Origin: a virus
Reading direction: 5' to 3' (one strand)
DNA: 22,882 bases
Virus record (IMG/VR): IMGVR_UViG_3300032223_001063
Span: 1 to 22,882 of that record
Below are positions 1,260-20,836 of the stretch, one piece after another. The translations under genes and the position numbers were made by a program. Positions within the stretch are counted from its first letter, which is position 1. Each line of letters starts with the position of its first letter. A model generated the notes under the pieces. It saw nothing but the letters and a program-made list of their open reading frames with translations, ran no database searches and was not told the DNA's origin.

Positions 1260-1805
1260 ATGTACAAATTAAATATTGGTTCTGGTTATAAGCGTTATGA
1301 TGGTTTTTTAAATATCGATAGTTTTGCTGGTTGCGAACCAGATTATATTTGTGATATAGAAAAAGATAGATTACCTTTTGATGATAGTTCCGTTGATGAA
1401 ATATACTGTCATCACATACTAGAGCATCTGGGTGAAGGGTTTTTCCACGCTATTCAGGAAATGTATAGAGTCTGCTGTGATGGAGCTATAATTGATATTA
1501 AGGTTCCGCATCCAAGGCATGATACATTTCTTATAGACCCTACACACAGAAGACCTATATATCCTTATACTATCGATATGTTTTCTCATAAAAGAAACAT
1601 AGCTGATAAGGAAAATGGTGGTTCAGAAACTCCTATTGGTCTGATATATGGCGTTAATCTTGAAGTTTTAAATTATGATTATGTTCTTGATTCGTATTAT
1701 CAACAAATGTTTCAGACTATACCAGATGAACAGTGTGATTATATAGCTCGTTCTCAAAACAATGTAATTTTAGAAATTATTATGAAAGTTATGGTGATAA
1801 AGTGA
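1260..1805 (+). CDS. Class I SAM-dependent methyltransferase (type 11-like)
   Basis: This 181-residue protein begins with the SAM-binding motif I LNIGSG (residues 4-9), an acidic D20 at the end of the second strand, and D32. It then has the LPFDDSSVDEIYCHHILEHL block (38-57) typical of type 11 methyltransferases that modify small molecules or sugars. It is a compact single-domain enzyme with no added binding domain, so the substrate cannot be read. A GGAG ribosome site at 1249-1252 lies 7 nt before the ATG. Its TGA stop overlaps the GTG start of the next gene, a TPR/GT9-like glycosyltransferase. That pairing suggests, without proving, a role in glycan modification such as O-methylation of a sugar. 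Confidence 0.82.
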   Translation: MYKLNIGSGYKRYDGFLNIDSFAGCEPDYICDIEKDRLPFDDSSVDEIYCHHILEHLGEGFFHAIQEMYRVCCDGAIIDIKVPHPRHDTFLIDPTHRRPIYPYTIDMFSHKRNIADKENGGSETPIGLIYGVNLEVLNYDYVLDSYYQQMFQTIPDEQCDYIARSQNNVILEIIMKVMVIK

Positions 1806-3115
1806 ATAATCCATTAGCAACAGCTGAATTTTTAATAGCTATAAAACAAAATGCAGAAGCAAAAAAGGTTTTAGATATTATGAAACCTTTTTGCAAAGAG
1901 TTATTTTCTATAGATTTGATTGGTAAATTGTATGCAGATTTAAGAGAGTTTGAGGATTGTCTTGAACTAGCATTTAAAGCTTATTCTCTTCCATTAAATA
2001 ACGAACAAAAATTTGATATTCGAACGAATATTACACGAGCTTATTTAAATCTTAATAAACCACACGAAGCATTAAAATATATCAAAGCAAATCTTACAGT
2101 AAAGCCAAATGACCATCCAACAAGAATGGATATGGCTATGGTTTACTTTCTACTGAATAGAAAAGATGAAGGTGAAGATATACTTCGTAAAATTCTTACA
2201 GAGAAAAGAACAGAAGATATTGATATTAGAGTAAATTTTAATCTTGGTACATATGAGTTGCGTAATGGTGTATTTAAAGATGGATTGCGTAAAGTATTGC
2301 TTGGTGGTAGAGAATTGAATATTTGGGAAAAGTATGATCTTCCCAGTGAAAATTTTTGGTCAGGAATATCACAACCCGGTAAAACAATAGTATTATGTAT
2401 GGAAGGTGGTATAGGCGACGAAATTATATCAATTCGCTTTCAAAAGCATCTTAAAGATTTGGGAATGAATCCAGTCACATATACTACAAGAAAAGATGTC
2501 GCTGCAATATTCAAACGCTGTGGATTTTCAATAATTGATAATTTGAATCTTTTTAGAAAAGATTGGCTTTGGACATACTCAATGGCAGCACCAACTTTTC
2601 TTGAATTGGAAAAAGAACAATTATGGGATGGACCCTATATTACTCCACTTCGTAAAGCACCTAAACTTGAAGGTAAGTTGAAGGTTGGTTTAAAGTGTTC
2701 TGGTAATCCAAAATATGATCAAGACCTTCATAGATCAATACCAGCAAAAGAAACAATTGATTGTTTACCAAAAGACGCTACGATCTATTCATTTCATGTT
2801 GATGAAGATATCGATGATCCTAGAGTAATTTCCTTGAGAGATAAAATTAAAACTTGGGATGACACCTTAGATTACATTGATCAGATGGACATAATTGTTT
2901 CTAGCTGTACATCTCTCCCTCATGCAGCTTCTGCTATGGGAAAGCAAACAATTGTGATGGTTCCTATTTTAAACTATTACACATGGGGTTTACCTGGTTA
3001 TACCACTCCATGGTACTCAGATAATACATTGATACTCAGACAGCAAGAATATGATAATTGGAATGCACCCTTGAAAGAATTAAAGGATTACTTTAATGAT
3101 CTATACGTTCGGTGA
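1802..3115 (+). CDS. TPR-repeat protein with GT9/heptosyltransferase-like C-terminal domain
   Basis: This 437-residue protein starts at GTG, overlapping the methyltransferase stop by 4 bp. Residues 1 to about 170 form TPR-like helical pairs (for example around ALKYIKANL and the alanine-rich helices), a protein-protein interaction scaffold. The C-terminal part looks like a GT-B glycosyltransferase of the heptosyltransferase (GT9) type. It has a GGIGDEI loop at 202-208, matching the IGD element near the N-terminus of that fold. It also has the SSCTSLPHAASAMGKQ block at 367-382, the counterpart of the family's DTSxxHxAGALGxP nucleotide-sugar site, with H374 kept but the usual Asp replaced. The likely role is transfer of a heptose or related sugar, which fits the ADP-heptose genes on the opposite strand. 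A degenerate, non-catalytic relative is possible. Confidence 0.75.
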   Translation: MNNPLATAEFLIAIKQNAEAKKVLDIMKPFCKELFSIDLIGKLYADLREFEDCLELAFKAYSLPLNNEQKFDIRTNITRAYLNLNKPHEALKYIKANLTVKPNDHPTRMDMAMVYFLLNRKDEGEDILRKILTEKRTEDIDIRVNFNLGTYELRNGVFKDGLRKVLLGGRELNIWEKYDLPSENFWSGISQPGKTIVLCMEGGIGDEIISIRFQKHLKDLGMNPVTYTTRKDVAAIFKRCGFSIIDNLNLFRKDWLWTYSMAAPTFLELEKEQLWDGPYITPLRKAPKLEGKLKVGLKCSGNPKYDQDLHRSIPAKETIDCLPKDATIYSFHVDEDIDDPRVISLRDKIKTWDDTLDYIDQMDIIVSSCTSLPHAASAMGKQTIVMVPILNYYTWGLPGYTTPWYSDNTLILRQQEYDNWNAPLKELKDYFNDLYVR

Positions 3116-3152
3116 TAGCTACACATGGGGATGGAACTTTTTTATTGATTAA
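3096..3152 (+). pseudogene. Relic of a GDSL/SGNH hydrolase gene (N-terminal 18 codons only)
   Basis: An ATG at 3096 opens MIYTFGDSYTWGWNFFID and then stops at TAA 3150-3152. The start TFGDSYTWG is the catalytic block I (GDS with the nucleophile Ser) that begins many phage SGNH hydrolases at almost exactly this distance from the N-terminus. An AAAGGA ribosome site at 3082-3087 lies 8 nt before the ATG, and the start overlaps the end of the glycosyltransferase gene in the normal way for this cluster. No continuation of the hydrolase is found in any frame before the next gene at 3165. The simplest reading is a deletion that removed the body of the gene and left the start; a functional micropeptide is less likely. 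Confidence 0.65.
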
Positions 3153-3164
3153 GGAATTAAAACT

Positions 3165-3785
3165 ATGACAGTTATGATAATTGATAACTTTTTGCCTTTA
3201 CCAAGAGTTGTAAGACATTGGGCCGCTTCGCAAAAATATTACAATGCCAAAGAATATACAGAAATGTATAACAAACACACTGATTGGCCAGGTAAAAGAA
3301 CGTTGCATGTAACCGATCTTGACCCAGAATATGCTAATTTTACTTTAAATAAGGTTGCTTCCATTGTTAATCGCTGTTACGATGTATACAATTTATCAAT
3401 AAAGTCTTATTTTCAACTTACGATAGAAGACGATGGTGATAGTTGGGTTCACCAAGACAATGATACAGATATTGCTGGTATATTATATTTAAACCCAAAT
3501 CCGCCTGAAAATTCTGGTACTACACTATATCATTGCAATGATGTTAACTCATGGCAGGCGTATATGGCTACTCAAGAAGGCTATAATACGCTGAAGACAA
3601 TAAACAGAATTGATAATGAAACGCTGTACAAAGAACTATTCCAGCCAATTGATGTGATAAGTAATGTTTTCAATAGGTTGATCCTATATCCAGGCACTGC
3701 TTATCATAAGTCGAACGACTACTTCGGTAAAGATATAACCGATGGAAGATTAACTCAAGTATTTTTTGTTAAAAACAATGTTTAA
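3165..3785 (+). CDS. 2-oxoglutarate/Fe(II)-dependent oxygenase-like protein (DUF6445 type)
   Basis: This 206-residue protein has the elements of a cupin-fold Fe(II)/2-oxoglutarate oxygenase. There is an HxD pair in WVHQDND (H96, D98), a distal metal His in PGTAYHKSNDYFG (H181), and a 2-oxoglutarate-binding Arg in DGRLTQVFF (R195). The ILYLNPNPP and SGTTLY segments resemble the DUF6445 proteins common in T4-like marine phages. The substrate is unknown; hydroxylation of a sugar, peptide or nucleotide is possible. AAGGA at 3151-3155 is 9 nt from the ATG at 3165 and 18 nt from the in-frame ATG at 3174, so the first start is preferred. Its last 8 bases overlap the YkgJ-like gene, suggesting coupled translation. 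Confidence 0.8.
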   Translation: MTVMIIDNFLPLPRVVRHWAASQKYYNAKEYTEMYNKHTDWPGKRTLHVTDLDPEYANFTLNKVASIVNRCYDVYNLSIKSYFQLTIEDDGDSWVHQDNDTDIAGILYLNPNPPENSGTTLYHCNDVNSWQAYMATQEGYNTLKTINRIDNETLYKELFQPIDVISNVFNRLILYPGTAYHKSNDYFGKDITDGRLTQVFFVKNNV

Positions 3786-4146
3786 TATAGTAAAAAATAA
3801 CGTTAATTTAACTTGCCTTGTTAACGACGAACCAGAAGTTGAAGTACCATGTGGTTCTTGTACACTATGTTGTTCTTTATTGGCACCTAGTTTAACGCCT
3901 GATGAAGTATCATCAGGTAAGTATCCAATAAGTTTAACGGCAGCAACAAAAGAGATTTTTGTTATTGATCCTACTGTTGGACCCGTTGTTACAATGTTTA
4001 AAAATAAACAAGGCGGATGTGCTATGCTTATCGATGGCAAGTGTTCAATATACGAAGATAGACCAAAAGCATGTAGACAATTTGATTGTAGAAAAGGGCA
4101 CCATCCTAAGACGAATGGTGCTTTAGATAATCTTCAACAGAAATAA
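3778..4146 (+). CDS. YkgJ-family cysteine-cluster protein
   Basis: The 122-residue product carries the hallmark PCGSCTLCC (C25, C28, C31, C32) and a second set C81, C89, C99, C104, ending in ACRQFDC. This eight-cysteine pattern belongs to the YkgJ/CxxCxxCC family, thought to bind zinc or an iron-sulfur cluster; its biochemical role is not established. I chose the ATG at 3778, which overlaps the oxygenase stop, over a TTG at 3766 that would add four residues; neither has a clear ribosome site, which points to translational coupling. The 3' end overlaps the convergent hldD-like gene by 41 bp. Pairing with an Fe(II) oxygenase may mean shared metal chemistry, but that is inference. Confidence 0.8.
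   Translation: MFNIVKNNVNLTCLVNDEPEVEVPCGSCTLCCSLLAPSLTPDEVSSGKYPISLTAATKEIFVIDPTVGPVVTMFKNKQGGCAMLIDGKCSIYEDRPKACRQFDCRKGHHPKTNGALDNLQQK
4095..4124. terminator. Candidate hairpin terminator between converging operons
   Basis: GCACCAT (4098-4104) and ATGGTGC (4115-4121) form a perfect 7-bp stem with a 10-nt loop. On the + strand it extends to 10 bp through two G-U pairs and one A-U. On the - strand the stem is followed by CCTTTTC, a short U-tract. The stop codon of the - strand hldD-like gene (4106-4108) lies in the loop, and the hairpin is inside the YkgJ-like coding region. It is the only candidate barrier between the two converging transcripts; the U-tract is weak. Confidence 0.4.
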
Positions 4147-4888
4147 AATTCAAATCAAAGTGCTTTTTAGCACAAGTATTTGTCTGATACTTACCTTCTA
4201 ATTTTTCTGGAAAGGGTATTGTCAAAATCTTTGCGTTATACTTATCAGCGATCAATTCAGCTACTTTCATAAATGATATAGGATTTGAAGTTCCAACATC
4301 ACAAATACCAACTGACTTAGGTGCAAAAATGCACCTTACCACATCACCAACCCAAACAAAATCTCTGTAAAAAGTTTCTGATCTTTCAAATACCTTTATT
4401 ATCCCAGTTTCTTTAGCTTGTTTGGTAAATTGGTGAATGGGACTTGCCTGATTTCTTTTGTGATCTTCGCCATCACCATATACATTGAAGAATCTCATCC
4501 CAACAATATCCATACCCTTTTCGATATATTCTTTCGCCACAATATCCACTGTAGCCTTTGATAAAGCGTAAGCGTTTAACGGCTCAATTTCACGATTGGT
4601 TAAATTACCGTAAACAGAAGCTGAAGAGGCGTAAACTATTGGGATATATCTGATACAACATTCATGAAATATTTCCATAGAGCATTGAATGTTGTTTCGA
4701 TACAACAAAGCAATATCTGTTTCCGTTGTGCTGGAAACAGCTCCCATATGGTATACAGTTTTAATATCTTTCCATGGCAAAGATTTCACATTACCAACAA
4801 TTTCATCGTCAACAGCCAGAACAGGTTCTTTGATTGCTCTGATAAAATGCTTGGCGATAAAACCCTTACTACCCGTTACCAATATCAC
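4106..4888 (-). CDS. hldD: ADP-L-glycero-D-manno-heptose 6-epimerase-like (HldD/RfaD)
   Basis: This 260-residue short-chain dehydrogenase/epimerase would convert ADP-D-glycero- to ADP-L-glycero-D-manno-heptose using bound NADP. It has a Rossmann start VTGSKGFIA (third Gly of GxxGxxG replaced by A12), then AVSSTTETD (51-58), YASSASVYG (86-94) with Ser89, and the Y107xxxK111 catalytic pair. The HldD signatures FFNVYGDGEDHK (133-144), FYRDFVWVGDV (173-183) and IPFPEKLEGKYQ (224-235) follow in order. These blocks line up with Escherichia coli HldD, which is about 50 residues longer; most of the loss is between the second strand and YHMGA. The start is GTG at 4888, overlapping the upstream HAD gene by 20 bp; no upstream in-frame ATG fits better. 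It is the last gene of the - strand operon. Confidence 0.87.
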   Translation of the reverse strand: MILVTGSKGFIAKHFIRAIKEPVLAVDDEIVGNVKSLPWKDIKTVYHMGAVSSTTETDIALLYRNNIQCSMEIFHECCIRYIPIVYASSASVYGNLTNREIEPLNAYALSKATVDIVAKEYIEKGMDIVGMRFFNVYGDGEDHKRNQASPIHQFTKQAKETGIIKVFERSETFYRDFVWVGDVVRCIFAPKSVGICDVGTSNPISFMKVAELIADKYNAKILTIPFPEKLEGKYQTNTCAKKHFDLNFISVEDYLKHHSS

Positions 4889-5180
4889 TGAAATAACTTT
4901 CTACATTATGCGCTTTATCATCAATCCAATGATCATAACTCGGCTTCTTGAAATTAAGAGTGGTATATTTCACACCCCAAACTTCTAGCTGATGTTTGGT
5001 CAAATCGCTCCAATCCTTACCAGAACTACCGCCTCTCGCTGTCCAGTAATGGACTTCGTGACCTTGATCGTAAAGGTTATTAAAGTGTTTGATTCTATTG
5101 GCGAATGGTTCAGCGTAGGCATAATTACCACTCACCGTTTGAGAACAAATCGTTCCATCGATGTCAACCATATACTTCAT
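4869..5180 (-). CDS. HAD-superfamily phosphatase, possible heptose-bisphosphate phosphatase
   Basis: This 103-residue HAD protein shows motif I VDIDGT (D6 nucleophile, D8 acid/base), motif II in HYWTARG (T47), a lysine near FKKP (78-79) and motif IV WIDDKA (D87, D88). It also has KDWSDLTKHQLEVWGV and KPSYDHWIDDKAHN segments typical of small capsule/LPS-associated HAD phosphatases. Sitting between hldE-like and hldD-like genes, it could supply the GmhB step, removing the 7-phosphate of heptose 1,7-bisphosphate. It is not a close GmhB match, being shorter and lacking the GmhB zinc-loop cysteines, so this is inference from context. Its ATG overlaps the cupin stop in ATGA (5177-5180), implying translational coupling. 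Confidence 0.8.
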   Translation of the reverse strand: MKYMVDIDGTICSQTVSGNYAYAEPFANRIKHFNNLYDQGHEVHYWTARGGSSGKDWSDLTKHQLEVWGVKYTTLNFKKPSYDHWIDDKAHNVESYFSDIGNG

Positions 5181-5533
5181 AACTGACTATCCCCAGGAAA
5201 TATTCTATAATTATCATAAACGCTATCCATTGTCGAAACTTCTGTAATTATCGAATCGTCTTCTAGAGCTTCAAGTTGATGTGGCATAAAAGGACGATTA
5301 CGCCAACTATCACCAACTGCTAGATCCTTTTCAATAATCTTCGCTGTATCTGTGTCAATATAACGTAGTAGGAATGATCCTTTGGATACGTACCAAGTTT
5401 CGTCTTTTACAGCATGAAAATGCATGCTGAACTTGCTTCCTTCTTTATCGAAACACAATAGTTTTCCACAGTAATGTTCAGTGTCGGCAAACACCACTTC
5501 TCTACCCCAACCCTTTTCAATCACATACGTCAT
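5177..5533 (-). CDS. Single-domain cupin, sugar isomerase/epimerase-like
   Basis: The 118-residue protein is one cupin domain with complete metal ligands: H38 and H40 in MHFHAVKDETWYV, E45, and H85 in PFMPHQLEAL. The opening VIEKGWGREVVF and the overall pattern resemble the cupin part of mannose-6-phosphate isomerase type II enzymes and single-domain cupins in LPS clusters. Its substrate is unknown; a sugar phosphate or nucleotide sugar is likely from the neighbours. An upstream in-frame ATG at 5569 is open, but GGAG at 5541-5544 lies 7 nt before the ATG at 5533. That start also reduces the overlap with the hldE-like gene from 53 to 17 bp, so 5533 is preferred. Confidence 0.8.
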   Translation of the reverse strand: MTYVIEKGWGREVVFADTEHYCGKLLCFDKEGSKFSMHFHAVKDETWYVSKGSFLLRYIDTDTAKIIEKDLAVGDSWRNRPFMPHQLEALEDDSIITEVSTMDSVYDNYRIFPGDSQL

Positions 5534-6683
5534 TCGTTCTCTCCAATATATTGGTCGTCGAGTATCCATCGATGTAAGGAATTATGACTACTTCGGCTAA
5601 TTCGTTGCCGATGACTGTGTCAGGCGTGTAGTCACCACCTTTTGTAATTATATCTGGTTTTATCTTTTTTATCAAGTCGTAAGGAGTATCTTCGTCAAAG
5701 ATAATTACCTCGTCAACGAAACTGAGCTCTTGCAGCACAGCCTTTCTGTCGTTCTGGTTATTTATCGGTCTGTTTTCACTCTTCAATCTCTTTACCGATT
5801 CATCAGAGTTCAAGCCAACTATCAGCTTTGCGCCAAGTTTCTTGGATGCTTTTAGGTATTCAATATGCCCTCTGTGAAGGATATCGAAGCAACCATTGGT
5901 AAAAACTGTTCTGGTTTGAGCGATATCTTCCTCTGTCAAAACGTAGGTACCAAACTTCGTCACGGATATCGATGCTAGCTGACAAGCTTTTTTACAGGAG
6001 TCATAAAGAGAATTGCCTTTGTCGAGAAAATGAGTCATGGCTGCGATAAACACATCTCCCGCGCCTGTCACATCTGCAACTTGATGTTGTTCTGTTTCTA
6101 TGAAACCCTCAAATTCATCTGATGAAATATATACGCCTCTAGCTCCCAAAGTTATAACCAACGCACCGATATTGTAGTATTTCCTAGTTTGATTATAATC
6201 TTTTGGTTCATAAAGACTGTACTCTGCTAACTCTTTTTCATTTAGCTTTATGATATCTGCGCCGTAGTAATGGTCAAGATTTTTCTTGGGGTCAACAATT
6301 ATTTTACAACCTTTACTCTTGCAGTAATTAATGATAGCTTGGCTTTTATGGAGGAATCCCTTGTTATAATCAGATAGGATACAAAATTTAACATCTCTCA
6401 ATGTATACTCTAAAAGGTTTTGATTTGGCACATATTCTTCAGCATCTTCTCTGAAGATAATATGATTATCGCAAACGTATCTTGTTTTAGTTGAGTTGTT
6501 GCTCGTCCAAAACCTAGTCTTGTTTCCGAGAGCGATCAGGTTTTCGTTGACATTTGCTGCACCACCCTTGCAAATTTTCTCGTTTAATCTTTTGAAAATA
6601 GGGATAGGAGATTCAGGTGAGATCCTTGTAACCTCTCCAAAAACGTACTTGTCAGTAATAGAATCACCAAATACAGCAATCAT
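5517..6683 (-). CDS. hldE: Bifunctional heptose-7-phosphate kinase / heptose-1-phosphate adenylyltransferase-like (HldE/RfaE)
   Basis: This 388-residue two-domain enzyme would phosphorylate D-glycero-D-manno-heptose 7-phosphate and later attach AMP to heptose 1-phosphate. Residues 1 to about 250 are a PfkB/ribokinase-type kinase: GDSITDKYVFG, the HldE-like RISPESPIPIF (20-30), GGAANV (40-45), SDYNKGF, IVDPKKN and the catalytic TGAGDVF with D210. Residues 255-388 are a nucleotidyltransferase: FTNGCFDILHRGH (261-273) with the HxGH site, LIVGLNSDESVKRLK, RPINNQNDR, DTPYDLI, TKGGDYTPD and GYSTTNI. Order and motifs match Escherichia coli HldE (477 residues), with a trimmed kinase domain. GAGG at 6689-6692 is 5 nt before the ATG. 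It is the first gene of the - strand operon. Confidence 0.92.
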   Translation of the reverse strand: MIAVFGDSITDKYVFGEVTRISPESPIPIFKRLNEKICKGGAANVNENLIALGNKTRFWTSNNSTKTRYVCDNHIIFREDAEEYVPNQNLLEYTLRDVKFCILSDYNKGFLHKSQAIINYCKSKGCKIIVDPKKNLDHYYGADIIKLNEKELAEYSLYEPKDYNQTRKYYNIGALVITLGARGVYISSDEFEGFIETEQHQVADVTGAGDVFIAAMTHFLDKGNSLYDSCKKACQLASISVTKFGTYVLTEEDIAQTRTVFTNGCFDILHRGHIEYLKASKKLGAKLIVGLNSDESVKRLKSENRPINNQNDRKAVLQELSFVDEVIIFDEDTPYDLIKKIKPDIITKGGDYTPDTVIGNELAEVVIIPYIDGYSTTNILERTNDVCD

Positions 6684-6712: not shown

Positions 6713-6741
6713 ATTATACTACCTGTTTTCTAAAAAGTAAA
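6713..6741 (-). promoter_or_regulatory. Sigma70-like promoter for the heptose operon
   Basis: Read on the - strand, TTTACT (6741-6736) and a perfect TATAAT (6718-6713) are separated by exactly 17 nt. Transcription would begin near 6706, leaving a leader of about 20 nt with the GAGG ribosome site of the hldE-like gene. No NATAAATA late motif precedes this operon. The hexamers were found by eye in a very AT-rich 97-bp divergent intergenic region, so a chance match cannot be excluded. Confidence 0.55.
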
Positions 6742-6779: not shown

Positions 6780-7130
6780 ATGAACATTACTTATACATGG
6801 GAAATTACCAACGTAAAAGTTAAAGACGTTGGTGATAACAAAAATGTTATACACCAAGTATATTGGAAAAAAATTGGAAGAACCCAATATGGGGATACTG
6901 GAGTTTTTGTTGGTGCAACACCTATCGACACCTCTTCTGTAAATCCTGATAATTTTGTCGATTTTGACAAACTGGAAGAAACTGACATTATTAAATGGAT
7001 TAAAAATATTGTTGTTGGTGATTATGAAAAAACAGTTAACGAAGATATTGAGTCTCAAATTCTCAATAACTTCCAAGAACAACAATTAATTAAATTAACT
7101 CCAGTATCATCTAATACATCAGGAAAATAA
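6780..7130 (+). CDS. Conserved small phage protein, paralogue of the next gene
   Basis: The 116-residue product begins NITYTWEI and has VIHQVYWKKIG, a G-rich turn, FVDFDKLEETDIIKWIK, and a charged C-terminal helix NEDIESQI. Proteins with this start and YWxxxG block recur among tail and fibre genes of T4-like environmental phages, but I know of no established function. It aligns throughout with its neighbour (ITYxWxI, YWxxxG, FDKL...W I), so the two arose by duplication. Its start is supported by AAGGA 6 nt upstream and an ideal late promoter. It has no signal peptide or membrane segment. A small virion or fibre-assembly protein is likely. Confidence 0.85.
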   Translation: MNITYTWEITNVKVKDVGDNKNVIHQVYWKKIGRTQYGDTGVFVGATPIDTSSVNPDNFVDFDKLEETDIIKWIKNIVVGDYEKTVNEDIESQILNNFQEQQLIKLTPVSSNTSGK

Positions 7131-7131
7131 A

Positions 7132-7461
7132 ATGACAATTACATATGAATGGAAAATAGACACGTTTGCCGCTAATCCTAAAATCAATAATAAAGAAAAT
7201 GTTATAACTGCTATTTACTGGTCTTTAGTTGGAACAAATGAAGACGGAGTAGAATCTGCCTTTCATAGTAAAACTGAAATAGAGTATGATAATAAATCTA
7301 AACATATTGCTTTTGATAAATTGACTGTTGATATTGTTTCTCAATGGATTATAGACGCTCTGGGCGAAGATACAGTTGCAGAAATTAAACAGAAAATTTC
7401 TAACCAAATTGATGAATTAGTAGCACCAAAAACTATTCATCTTCCGCCCCCTTGGGCATAA
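7132..7461 (+). CDS. Conserved small phage protein, paralogue of the preceding gene
   Basis: This 109-residue protein starts TITYEWKI, has VITAIYWSLVGTNEDG, IAFDKLTVDIVSQWI and the helix AEIKQKISNQIDELV, and ends in PPPWA. The pattern repeats that of the gene before it, from which its ATG is separated by one base. AGGA at 7121-7124 gives a ribosome site 7 nt before the start. Function is unknown. The tail PPPWA is absent from the first paralogue, so the C-termini have diverged most. Its stop codon is part of the late-promoter motif for the next gene. Confidence 0.85.
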   Translation: MTITYEWKIDTFAANPKINNKENVITAIYWSLVGTNEDGVESAFHSKTEIEYDNKSKHIAFDKLTVDIVSQWIIDALGEDTVAEIKQKISNQIDELVAPKTIHLPPPWA

Positions 7462-18040: not shown

Positions 18041-20836
18041 ATGGCAATTCAATTAAGTCCAGGCGTAAATGTAACAGAAGTTGACCTTACTACTGTAGTT
18101 CCTACAGTTGCAACTGCAGTTGGCGCCATTGCTGGTTTATTCCAATGGGGACCAGTTGGTAAGAGAGTTTTGGTGGACACAGAAGATAATCTTATAAAGT
18201 ATTTTTCTAAGCCAACTAACTATAACGCAGAAACATGGTTTACCGCTGCTAACTTTTTATCATACAATAATAGCCTTTATGTTTCTCGTGCAGCAAATAC
18301 TACTGGTGCCACACCAAGAGTATTAGTAAATACAGTTGCTGGAAACGCTAGTTATGTTACTAATGCTGCAGGTGGTGATTTTACTAGTACAATTTTCCCA
18401 GGAATGTATCTTGTACAGTCTTCAAATTCTTCAGTAATAGTTCCTAAACCAGATAAGCCTATCACTGTAACTTCTGTTAATGCAACAGCAATTATGCTGA
18501 GTCAAGCTGTATTAGTAAACACTGTTGTTGCTAATACCATTTTACATTTCGCATATCCAGCAACATCTTTCAACGGTTTAGCTATTGATGGTACTAATTA
18601 CGGTACTGGAAATTATTACGCTAACAGTGACTATGTTTCAAGTAAAACAGGAACTAATGCTTCTAGATCAATCGTAACTAATCTTTCCGGTCAAATCGTT
18701 GCTAATGAAAACGATTTCCTTTCTAAGAATGGCAATTTTGATCCAGACGTATTGTATATTGCAAGATATCCAGGCAAGCAGGGTTCTTCTTTAAGAGTTT
18801 CTGTTTGCGATAGTTCTAATGCATTTACTTCTACAGTAACTGGTACAAATAGCACTACATATGGAACTGCACTAATTAACAATTCAACTAGCTTTAGTAT
18901 AAACGGTGGTGGTTATTTGTGTGTAGAACTTGGAGATTCTTTTGCATCTGCTGCAGGATTTAGTAACCTTACCGCTGCTGCAGCTTATGCTAGTCAGTTT
19001 TCCGTTGGAGATAAAATACTAGTTGGAAACAATACTGTTGGTTATCAGCAATTAGTTGTTGATAGCGTAGTTGTTTCAACCAATACTGTTACTAATCCAT
19101 TAATGGTTGGTACTAGCAACACAGCGCAAACAGCTAATGTATCATTAGTAGCTAATTCTTCGCTTGTTAATAACGCTATTGGATTTATGCAATGCAATAA
19201 TATTTTCTCAAATAATGATGTAGTTTTCTATGCTAATAACGATACTAAAACTGCATTGAGTATTGTTGGCAATCCTTATAATAATACTGCTATAACAACT
19301 CTACAAAAGCAAACAGATTATTATATTGTAAACGCTAACACTTCAGGTTTCGCAGTTTCATTAACTCCTGCAGGAAATCCAATTCTTGTTCAAGGAGCTG
19401 CAGATAGAGAATGTACGTTCATAGCAAGTAACAATCAAGTTCTTATTAACTTTACTGAGCCATATAAGTTACATACACCTACATATCTTGACACAGTTAC
19501 TAAGAGCTGGGAATTCAAGGATGTAGTTCAGGCTGCTCCAGGTCAGTCTAATTATGTTAGAATGTATGGCAACAGCGCAGCTCAAGACGAACTTCATGTT
19601 GTAGTTGTAGACGACGATGGTCTATTTACTGGAACTCCAGGTTCGATTCTTGAAGTATATAAGAATCTTTCAAGAGCTACAGACGCTAAGAACATTGACG
19701 GATCTTCTGCTTATTATAAGGAAGTAATTAATCAAAGTTCTGCATACGTTTGGGTTGCTAATGATAGATATATTTGTCCTTCTGCAAATGCTCTATTTGT
19801 AACAAATCCAAACCAGACAACTAACTCTGCTGTTTGGGGAACAAAGCCTCTTAATATTAAGATGTCTTTCGCCCAAGATGGTTATAATGAAGCTCATGCT
19901 AATTCTTTCTCATCAATTGCAGCTGCTTATGATTTGTTCAAGTCTCCTGAAGAAGTTGATATTTCTCTTGTTCTTACAGGTCGTCCTCTTGGTGGTGTAA
20001 CAACTGTTAATGGTCAAACTGTTACAAATTTCCAAATTGCAAATTATGTTATCGACAATATTTGCGAAACTAGAAAAGATTGCGTAGCTTTCGTTTCTCC
20101 TGACAAGTCATTAATTATTAATAGCATTAATAACAGCACAACAGGCAGAGAAGCTTCTAATCTTGTTAACTGGAGAGGAGCTATCCGTAGCACTTCTTAT
20201 GCTGTTATGGATGGCAGCTATAAGTATCAGTACGATCGTTATAACGATGTTTATCGTTGGATCCCTCTAAATGGTGATATCGCTGGCTTATGCGCTAGAA
20301 CAGATCATACTAACGATGCTTGGTGGTCTCCTGCTGGTTTCAATCGCGGTCAAATTAAGAACATTATCAGACTTGGTTATAATCCTACTCAGTCAGAACG
20401 CGATCTAATTTACGTTAACGGAATTAACCCAGTAGTAACATTCCCTGGCAAGGGTACAGTTCTTTATGGTGATAAAACTCTTCAGGGTAAGCCTTCTGCA
20501 TTTGACCGTATCAATGTTCGCAGATTGTTTATTGTTCTTGAAAAGGCTATTTCTGCCGCTTCAAAATATTCTCTGTTCGAATTTAATGATCCTTTCACTC
20601 GTTCGCAGTTTAAGAATCTTGTGACTCCTTACCTTCGCCAAATTCAGGGTCGTCGTGGTATTACTGATTTCCATGTAGTTTGCGACGAAACTAATAATAC
20701 CGCACAGGTTATTGATAGCAACCAGTTTGTTGGTGACATCTATATTAAACCAGCTCGTTCAATCAACTTCATTCAGTTGAATTTCGTGGCTGTTGGAACT
20801 GGCGTTCAATTCTCCGAAGTTGTTGGCAAGTTCTAA
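18041..20836 (+). CDS. 18: Tail sheath protein gp18 (enlarged)
   Basis: The contractile sheath subunit is recognised by the N-terminal QLSPGVNVTEVDLTTVVPTVATA, GLFQWGPVGKRVLV and NFLSYNNSLYVSRA blocks. The C-terminal part has SWEFKDVVQAAPGQSNYV (from about 489), DELHVVVVDDDGLFTG, RPLGG, NLVNWRGAIRSTSYAVMDG, GDIAGLCARTDHTNDAWWSPAG, GKGTVLYGDKTLQ and NVRRLFIVLEKAI. At 931 residues it is much larger than T4 gp18 (659). The extra length lies between about residues 90 and 480 and is Ser/Thr/Asn-rich. Residues around 390-455, with TDYYIVNANTSGFAVSLTPAG, look like the small beta domain repeated in other environmental phage tail proteins. The insertion probably decorates the outside of the sheath. 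Confidence 0.95.
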   Translation: MAIQLSPGVNVTEVDLTTVVPTVATAVGAIAGLFQWGPVGKRVLVDTEDNLIKYFSKPTNYNAETWFTAANFLSYNNSLYVSRAANTTGATPRVLVNTVAGNASYVTNAAGGDFTSTIFPGMYLVQSSNSSVIVPKPDKPITVTSVNATAIMLSQAVLVNTVVANTILHFAYPATSFNGLAIDGTNYGTGNYYANSDYVSSKTGTNASRSIVTNLSGQIVANENDFLSKNGNFDPDVLYIARYPGKQGSSLRVSVCDSSNAFTSTVTGTNSTTYGTALINNSTSFSINGGGYLCVELGDSFASAAGFSNLTAAAAYASQFSVGDKILVGNNTVGYQQLVVDSVVVSTNTVTNPLMVGTSNTAQTANVSLVANSSLVNNAIGFMQCNNIFSNNDVVFYANNDTKTALSIVGNPYNNTAITTLQKQTDYYIVNANTSGFAVSLTPAGNPILVQGAADRECTFIASNNQVLINFTEPYKLHTPTYLDTVTKSWEFKDVVQAAPGQSNYVRMYGNSAAQDELHVVVVDDDGLFTGTPGSILEVYKNLSRATDAKNIDGSSAYYKEVINQSSAYVWVANDRYICPSANALFVTNPNQTTNSAVWGTKPLNIKMSFAQDGYNEAHANSFSSIAAAYDLFKSPEEVDISLVLTGRPLGGVTTVNGQTVTNFQIANYVIDNICETRKDCVAFVSPDKSLIINSINNSTTGREASNLVNWRGAIRSTSYAVMDGSYKYQYDRYNDVYRWIPLNGDIAGLCARTDHTNDAWWSPAGFNRGQIKNIIRLGYNPTQSERDLIYVNGINPVVTFPGKGTVLYGDKTLQGKPSAFDRINVRRLFIVLEKAISAASKYSLFEFNDPFTRSQFKNLVTPYLRQIQGRRGITDFHVVCDETNNTAQVIDSNQFVGDIYIKPARSINFIQLNFVAVGTGVQFSEVVGKF

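Follow-up and report, generated by a model that had tools for sequence, protein, structure and literature searches.

We analysed a window of 22,882 nt, positions 1-22,882 of the IMG/VR virus record IMGVR_UViG_3300032223_001063, in which four overlapping minus-strand genes, running from 6683 to 4106, encode an HldE-like enzyme, a cupin, a small HAD phosphatase and an HldD-like epimerase. With a probability of roughly 0.6, we propose that this operon encodes every step from sedoheptulose 7-phosphate (S7P) to ADP-L-glycero-beta-D-manno-heptose, with the cupin replacing the isomerase GmhA and the product modifying a surface glycan. The operon appears to be a divergent, complete version of a gene set already known from phages, its new element being the cupin that most likely takes the place of GmhA. 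S7P is an intermediate of the host pentose-phosphate pathway. The cupin would convert it to D-glycero-D-manno-heptose 7-phosphate instead of a SIS-family GmhA, the kinase domain of HldE would add the 1-phosphate, the small HAD would remove the 7-phosphate, the nucleotidyltransferase domain of HldE would attach AMP and HldD would epimerise C6. The activated heptose would then modify a glycan, most likely in the envelope of the infected cell, although this acceptor is conjecture and the virion may be modified instead.

The window is a T4-like phage contig with a run of tail-fibre, neck, tail-sheath-stabiliser, terminase, sheath, tube and portal genes, and its terminase has its closest relatives in Sinorhizobium phages (58% identity). 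The heptose cassette lies in the tail-fibre/host-recognition region, which bears out the initial annotation, made from the sequence alone, where it had been placed within a T4-like tail module.

Predicted kinase, phosphatase and epimerase of the operon

Successive genes of the operon overlap by 17, 4 and 20 nt. The initial annotation had recognised the overlapping operon and three of its products, and it had overlooked a fourth gene, that of the cupin, between HldE and the HAD. The HldE-like protein (5517..6683, minus strand, 388 aa) is predicted to be an N-terminal heptose-7-phosphate kinase fused to a C-terminal heptose-1-phosphate adenylyltransferase. HldE models matched over both domains (NCBIfam HldE NF008454, E=1.8e-86; also TIGR02198, and TIGR02199 at 1.3e-51), and PDB matches included HldA (4e84) and an HldE-C-like structure (5x9q). 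The protein joins a PfkB kinase to a cytidylyltransferase-like domain, with the GAGD Asp at residue 210 and HRGH at 270 both intact, just as the bifunctional enzyme with D210 and an HxGH site had been described. Its score of 290.6 bits lies under the HldE equivalog cut-off of 521, and the kinase domain is shorter than that of bacterial HldE, as seen from an alignment gap.

The last gene (4106..4888, minus strand, GTG start) encodes a putative ADP-glyceromanno-heptose 6-epimerase, in agreement with the earlier HldD-like assignment. ADP-heptose 6-epimerase was its best family (NCBIfam heptose_epim TIGR02197, 9e-56), it matched PDB 1eq2 at 1.2e-40 and it carries Y107/K111 of the YxxxK motif; the score, 189 bits, is below the equivalog cut-off of 274.6. 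As such scores mark divergent members, we term the 388-aa protein HldE-like only. The sugar and nucleotide specificity of the operon we infer from these sequence relations.

The small HAD (4869..5180, minus strand, 103 aa) is a candidate heptose-1,7-bisphosphate 7-phosphatase. Its four HAD motifs (DxD, T47, K79, DD) were invariant in 10 members, so that the HAD phosphatase of the initial annotation holds, with its catalytic residues conserved. The closest structures were HADs of capsule biosynthesis (PDB 9iqw, 6e-20). GmhB is a HAD-IIIA family (NF006506/TIGR00213) whose members have about 180 aa; the 103-aa protein falls outside it, whereas classical phage GmhB has NF006506 as its best family (about 1e-39). 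When profiles were compared, this HAD and phage GmhB showed a weak relation (prob. 40), and for this reason we propose the small HAD as a GmhB analogue only. Among 103 HldE loci, classical GmhB was present in 27, the small HAD in 14 and both in none, a lack of overlap with P of about 0.01 on the assumption of independent loci, which these are not.

The cupin as a candidate sedoheptulose-7-phosphate isomerase

The cupin (5177..5533, minus strand, 118 aa) is proposed as the isomerase in GmhA's place on the basis of conservation, fold, profile alignment and linkage to heptose kinases. The proposal is that it functions like GmhA, not that it belongs to the SIS family, as it has no SIS_2 domain and a different fold. 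Of its proposed metal ligands H38, H40, E45 and H85, the last three were found in 66/66 cupin members and H38 in 65/66. The AlphaFold2 model showed a confident cupin fold (mean pLDDT 96.6). Foldseek with this model retrieved many cupins, with CapF, oxalate decarboxylase and KdgF among the first ranks and with D-lyxose isomerases and one archaeal phosphomannose isomerase (PMI) also in the top 50; judged from the predicted structure, the fold search by itself picks out no isomerase among the cupins.

Sugar-cupin profiles were compared for three families only, type II PMI, the CapF C-terminal domain and FdtA. Using hhalign, the cupin aligned with type II PMI over nearly its full length (prob. 96-97, P 1e-9 to 3.5e-11), compared with probabilities of 70 for the CapF domain, 4 for FdtA and 0.4 for a reversed-profile control. 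These alignments gave domain homology and the conserved motif of type II PMI. No PF01050 match above cut-off was listed for the window cupin; among its 66 relatives the profile matched 37 (best 7.8e-7). The search for Lyx_isomer in 80 genomes yielded no family for comparison with the cupin. The reaction of phosphomannose isomerase links fructose 6-phosphate and mannose 6-phosphate in both directions, and by chemical reasoning S7P and D-glycero-D-manno-heptose 7-phosphate are the C7 counterparts of this pair. The PHROG labels of the cupin ("cysteine dioxygenase") and of the small HAD ("phosphoheptose isomerase") are, we think, both misleading.

Scans of viral contigs with window-type and cyanophage-type cupin profiles gave at least 585 and at least 573 confirmed relatives, respectively; in about 85,000 cellular genomes eight were found. 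Cupin heptose cassettes occur in phages across seas and lakes. Two of the eight cellular matches, contigs L026 and L027 of a Neomarinimicrobiota metagenome-assembled genome, carry the same phage cassette together with tail genes and are therefore probably phage contigs binned in that genome. We examined 160 viral loci chosen by cupin similarity alone, the best 80 of the window type and 80 of the cyanophage type. A heptose-7-phosphate kinase was encoded in 154 of them, mostly HldE, with HddA in 13. The best 80 window-type loci had HldE in 78 and HldD in 76, and the 80 cyanophage-type loci had a kinase in 76 (HldE 65, HddA 13, both in two), the small HAD in 63 and no SIS gene found. In phage records from isolates or single-amplified genomes, the cupin was accompanied by a heptose kinase in 35/35 (HldE 31, HddA 4). 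In the four HddA records HddA adjoins the cupin and occurs with an HddC-like nucleotidyltransferase (NF049969 7e-83, NF049965 4e-17); for AG-345-E15 this comes from inspection of open reading frames and use as phmmer query. In 71 loci the neighbourhood of the heptose cassette also included a Nudix-like hydrolase gene (e.g. L026 6193-6702, L002 4136-4573), apparently degenerate in some, such as L003 and L005.

The cupin is linked in this way to two unrelated kinase types, HldE of the ADP-heptose route and HddA, a GHMP-type kinase of the GDP-heptose pathway. Kinase and nucleotidyltransferase differ between the two routes, and only the isomerisation of S7P and the dephosphorylation of the bisphosphate are common to both. 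In three contigs (L301, L311, L329) the genes overlap in the order HddA-HAD-cupin-HddC-like, which leaves the isomerase as the sole step to be filled, and with the cupin as isomerase all four GDP-heptose steps would be encoded. The Synechococcus phage SynMITS9220M01 has two cassettes. In the first, HddA and HddC flank the cupin; the second has no cupin and combines a GmhA-like SIS gene, a GHMP kinase, an annotated HldD and a small HAD fused to a cytidylyltransferase-like/nucleotidyltransferase-like domain (L253, 15003-15755). We rejected the SIS gene as isomerase of the cupin cassette, since it belongs to the second one.

A SIS_2 profile search for the GmhA family in 88 phage records, most with HldE, gave none above the cut-off; matches that passed it were obtained in 8 of the 14 control genomes, and many of the 88 records are fragments. 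That GmhA had not been recognised in the initial annotation agrees with this result, but the step itself is probably taken by the cupin, whose gene having been overlooked probably explains the gap.

Points against and alternative explanations

Several observations weigh against the proposed pathway. The scores of HldE, HldD, GmhB and HddA are all under the curated equivalog cut-offs. In Foldseek, oxalate decarboxylase, CapF and KdgF equal or outscore the isomerases, and cupins are functionally diverse. HldE phage records without a detected cupin were also without SIS_2 (20/32, many of them fragments); GmhA did not appear where the cupin was missing, and both were absent. The missing GmhA alone hence does not single out the cupin, the argument being supportive and not decisive, and the host may supply heptose 7-phosphate to HldE phages. 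In the L007 record a weak SIS gene lies about 13 kb away, within a separate cluster that also contains an aminotransferase and a dehydroquinate-synthase-like gene, and we rejected it as GmhA of the cassette. No heptose gene was found near 5 of the 8 cupin relatives from cellular genomes, nor near the cupin in L290 and L325, two phage fragments whose flanks were ample. Moreover, the cupin loci are related and partly overlapping, so that the counts are not independent trials. As a separate observation, a phage cluster in L256 (4217-7800) combines an aminotransferase, a dehydroquinate-synthase-like protein and a SIS protein, perhaps for another S7P-derived product.

Provision of heptose 7-phosphate by a host GmhA, with the cupin acting elsewhere, for instance epimerising or isomerising the glycan or a heptose intermediate further along the route, would fit the many HldE records lacking both cupin and SIS_2, from which some phages seem to manage without a recognised isomerase of their own, and epimerases such as CapF do exist among cupin folds. 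We nevertheless regard it as unlikely, as the cupin goes with both ADP- and GDP-heptose kinases, whose routes share the isomerase and phosphatase steps only, as its closest relative among the compared sugar-cupin families is an aldose-ketose phosphate isomerase, and as a SIS gene occupies the cupin's place in one cassette of SynMITS9220M01. That divergent, repurposed enzymes produce a different activated sugar is suggested by the sub-cut-off scores of the HldE-, HldD- and GmhB-like proteins and by the shortened kinase domain; this is improbable given that HldE and HldD lead all other families by far, that classical GmhB is added in some loci and that in vitro activity of viral NDP-heptose enzymes has been reported (Tang et al. 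2024, in the summary of PMC11461863). Profile matches support the synthesis of activated heptose by the phage, as had been put forward initially, and so does the fact that many phages conserve the cassette.

It had also been suggested that a converging GT9-like protein is a heptosyltransferase consuming the ADP-heptose. This protein (1802-3115, plus strand; here TPR-GT) has tetratricopeptide repeats in its N-terminal and an alpha/beta, glycosyltransferase-like fold in its C-terminal half, it adjoins and converges on the cassette, and L116 and L117 share this layout. However, the cassette was nearby only in these two of 18 loci of its relatives (L112-L129), whereas methyltransferase and CxxCxxCC genes stood alongside in 18/18 and DUF6445 sometimes. 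A search with the GT9 Pfam profile (Glyco_transf_9) in 12 members found no match, and the best structural matches were GT41 O-glycosyltransferases (OGT, SPINDLY) at a TM-score of about 0.3 (model mean pLDDT 81). GT9 identity was rejected on profiles, fold and neighbourhood, a role as ADP-heptose-consuming heptosyltransferase is very improbable, and a heptose link of the TPR-GT is not supported. The profile and structure searches that the initial annotation had called for upheld the HldE and HldD families and did not uphold the GT9 assignment. The TPR-GT appears to belong to a separate plus-strand module (1260..4146) of methyltransferase, TPR-GT-like, DUF6445 and CxxCxxCC proteins, which is not part of the heptose cassette.

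Among other features, a promoter-like site (6713..6741, minus strand, TTTACT-17-TATAAT, 10/12) lies just upstream of HldE and a terminator-like hairpin (4098..4121, minus strand, 9 pairs, T-rich tail) at the HldD end. Both are consensus matches only, with 28 promoter-like matches observed against 20.3 expected from shuffles and 6 hairpins against 2.3, and they would fit an independent transcription unit. Neither Rfam families nor tRNAs were found in the window. Two neighbouring DUF7936 paralogues (6780-7130 and 7132-7461) adjoin the cassette, an RCC1-like repeat protein (63-1238; regulator of chromosome condensation PHROGs) lies at the tail-fibre end of the region, and the tail sheath protein (18041-20836) has 931 aa compared with 496 in the PHROG model, suggesting inserted domains.

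Significance and comparison with known systems

We lean towards the cupin being a second S7P isomerase family, unrelated to SIS, largely confined to phages and serving both ADP- and GDP-heptose synthesis, in which case many marine and freshwater phages, including those of cyanobacteria, would encode a full activated-heptose pathway. This reading gives a proposed function to a family of proteins that counts at least several hundred members among viral contigs but only 8 in the cellular genomes scanned, and it points out the two misleading annotations. Phage heptose pathways would then be self-sufficient starting from a host sugar phosphate, also in phages of cyanobacteria whose own lipopolysaccharide (LPS) reportedly lacks heptose. 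For marine Synechococcus WH8102, an LPS without heptose has been reported (PMC4515613). HldE and the cupin are nevertheless present in phages Sf-CH5, Sf-CH8 and Sf-FS3, for which the records give WH8102 as host, and this makes the heptose acceptor a direct question.

In our literature search no paper tied a cupin to the S7P isomerase step, and the cupin had no assigned role. The cyanophage LPS cluster T4-GC 304-308 (P-SSM2, S-SSM7, S-SM2) is known (Sullivan et al. 2010, PMC3037559); the co-occurrence of T4-GC 304, 305, 307 and 308 was noted there and their function left open. In pelagimyophages rfaE and further LPS-related genes are present, many of them located in a host recognition cluster (PMC7029224), and the announcement of SynMITS9220M01 lists heptose-related LPS genes (PMC7378029). 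The window shares the gene set and a similar genomic place with the T4-GC 304-308 cyanophages and pelagimyophages, but HldE is split in these cyanophages and fused here, and neither PMC3037559 nor PMC7029224 assigns the cupin a step. According to the summaries in PMC11461863 and PMC11573728, viral heptose nucleotidyltransferases make ADP-heptose in vitro (Tang et al. 2024), and the phosphatase is described in PMC11461863 as absent in viruses; in contrast to the viral enzymes as summarised there, many phages have GmhB or the small HAD alongside the cassette. At the STTR5 Arg position the window HldE has Tyr, and Arg occurred in 0/47 phage HldE with a readable motif.

With type II PMI (the ManC C-terminal domain and single-domain forms, PF01050) the cupin shares the fold and the conserved-residue order WG, K, S, H, R/K, E, while its substrate would be C7 rather than C6. 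The overlapping phage HddA-HAD-cupin-HddC-like cassettes resemble the GDP-D-glycero-alpha-D-manno-heptose pathway (GmhA, HddA, GmhB, HddC), with the cupin in the GmhA slot; the window itself has no HddA or HddC. Its operon resembles the bacterial ADP-heptose pathway (GmhA, HldE, GmhB, HldD) in its HldE and HldD homologues with conserved motifs and in its HAD phosphatase, and differs from it in having a cupin for the SIS-family GmhA, a 103-aa HAD for GmhB and a shortened kinase domain.

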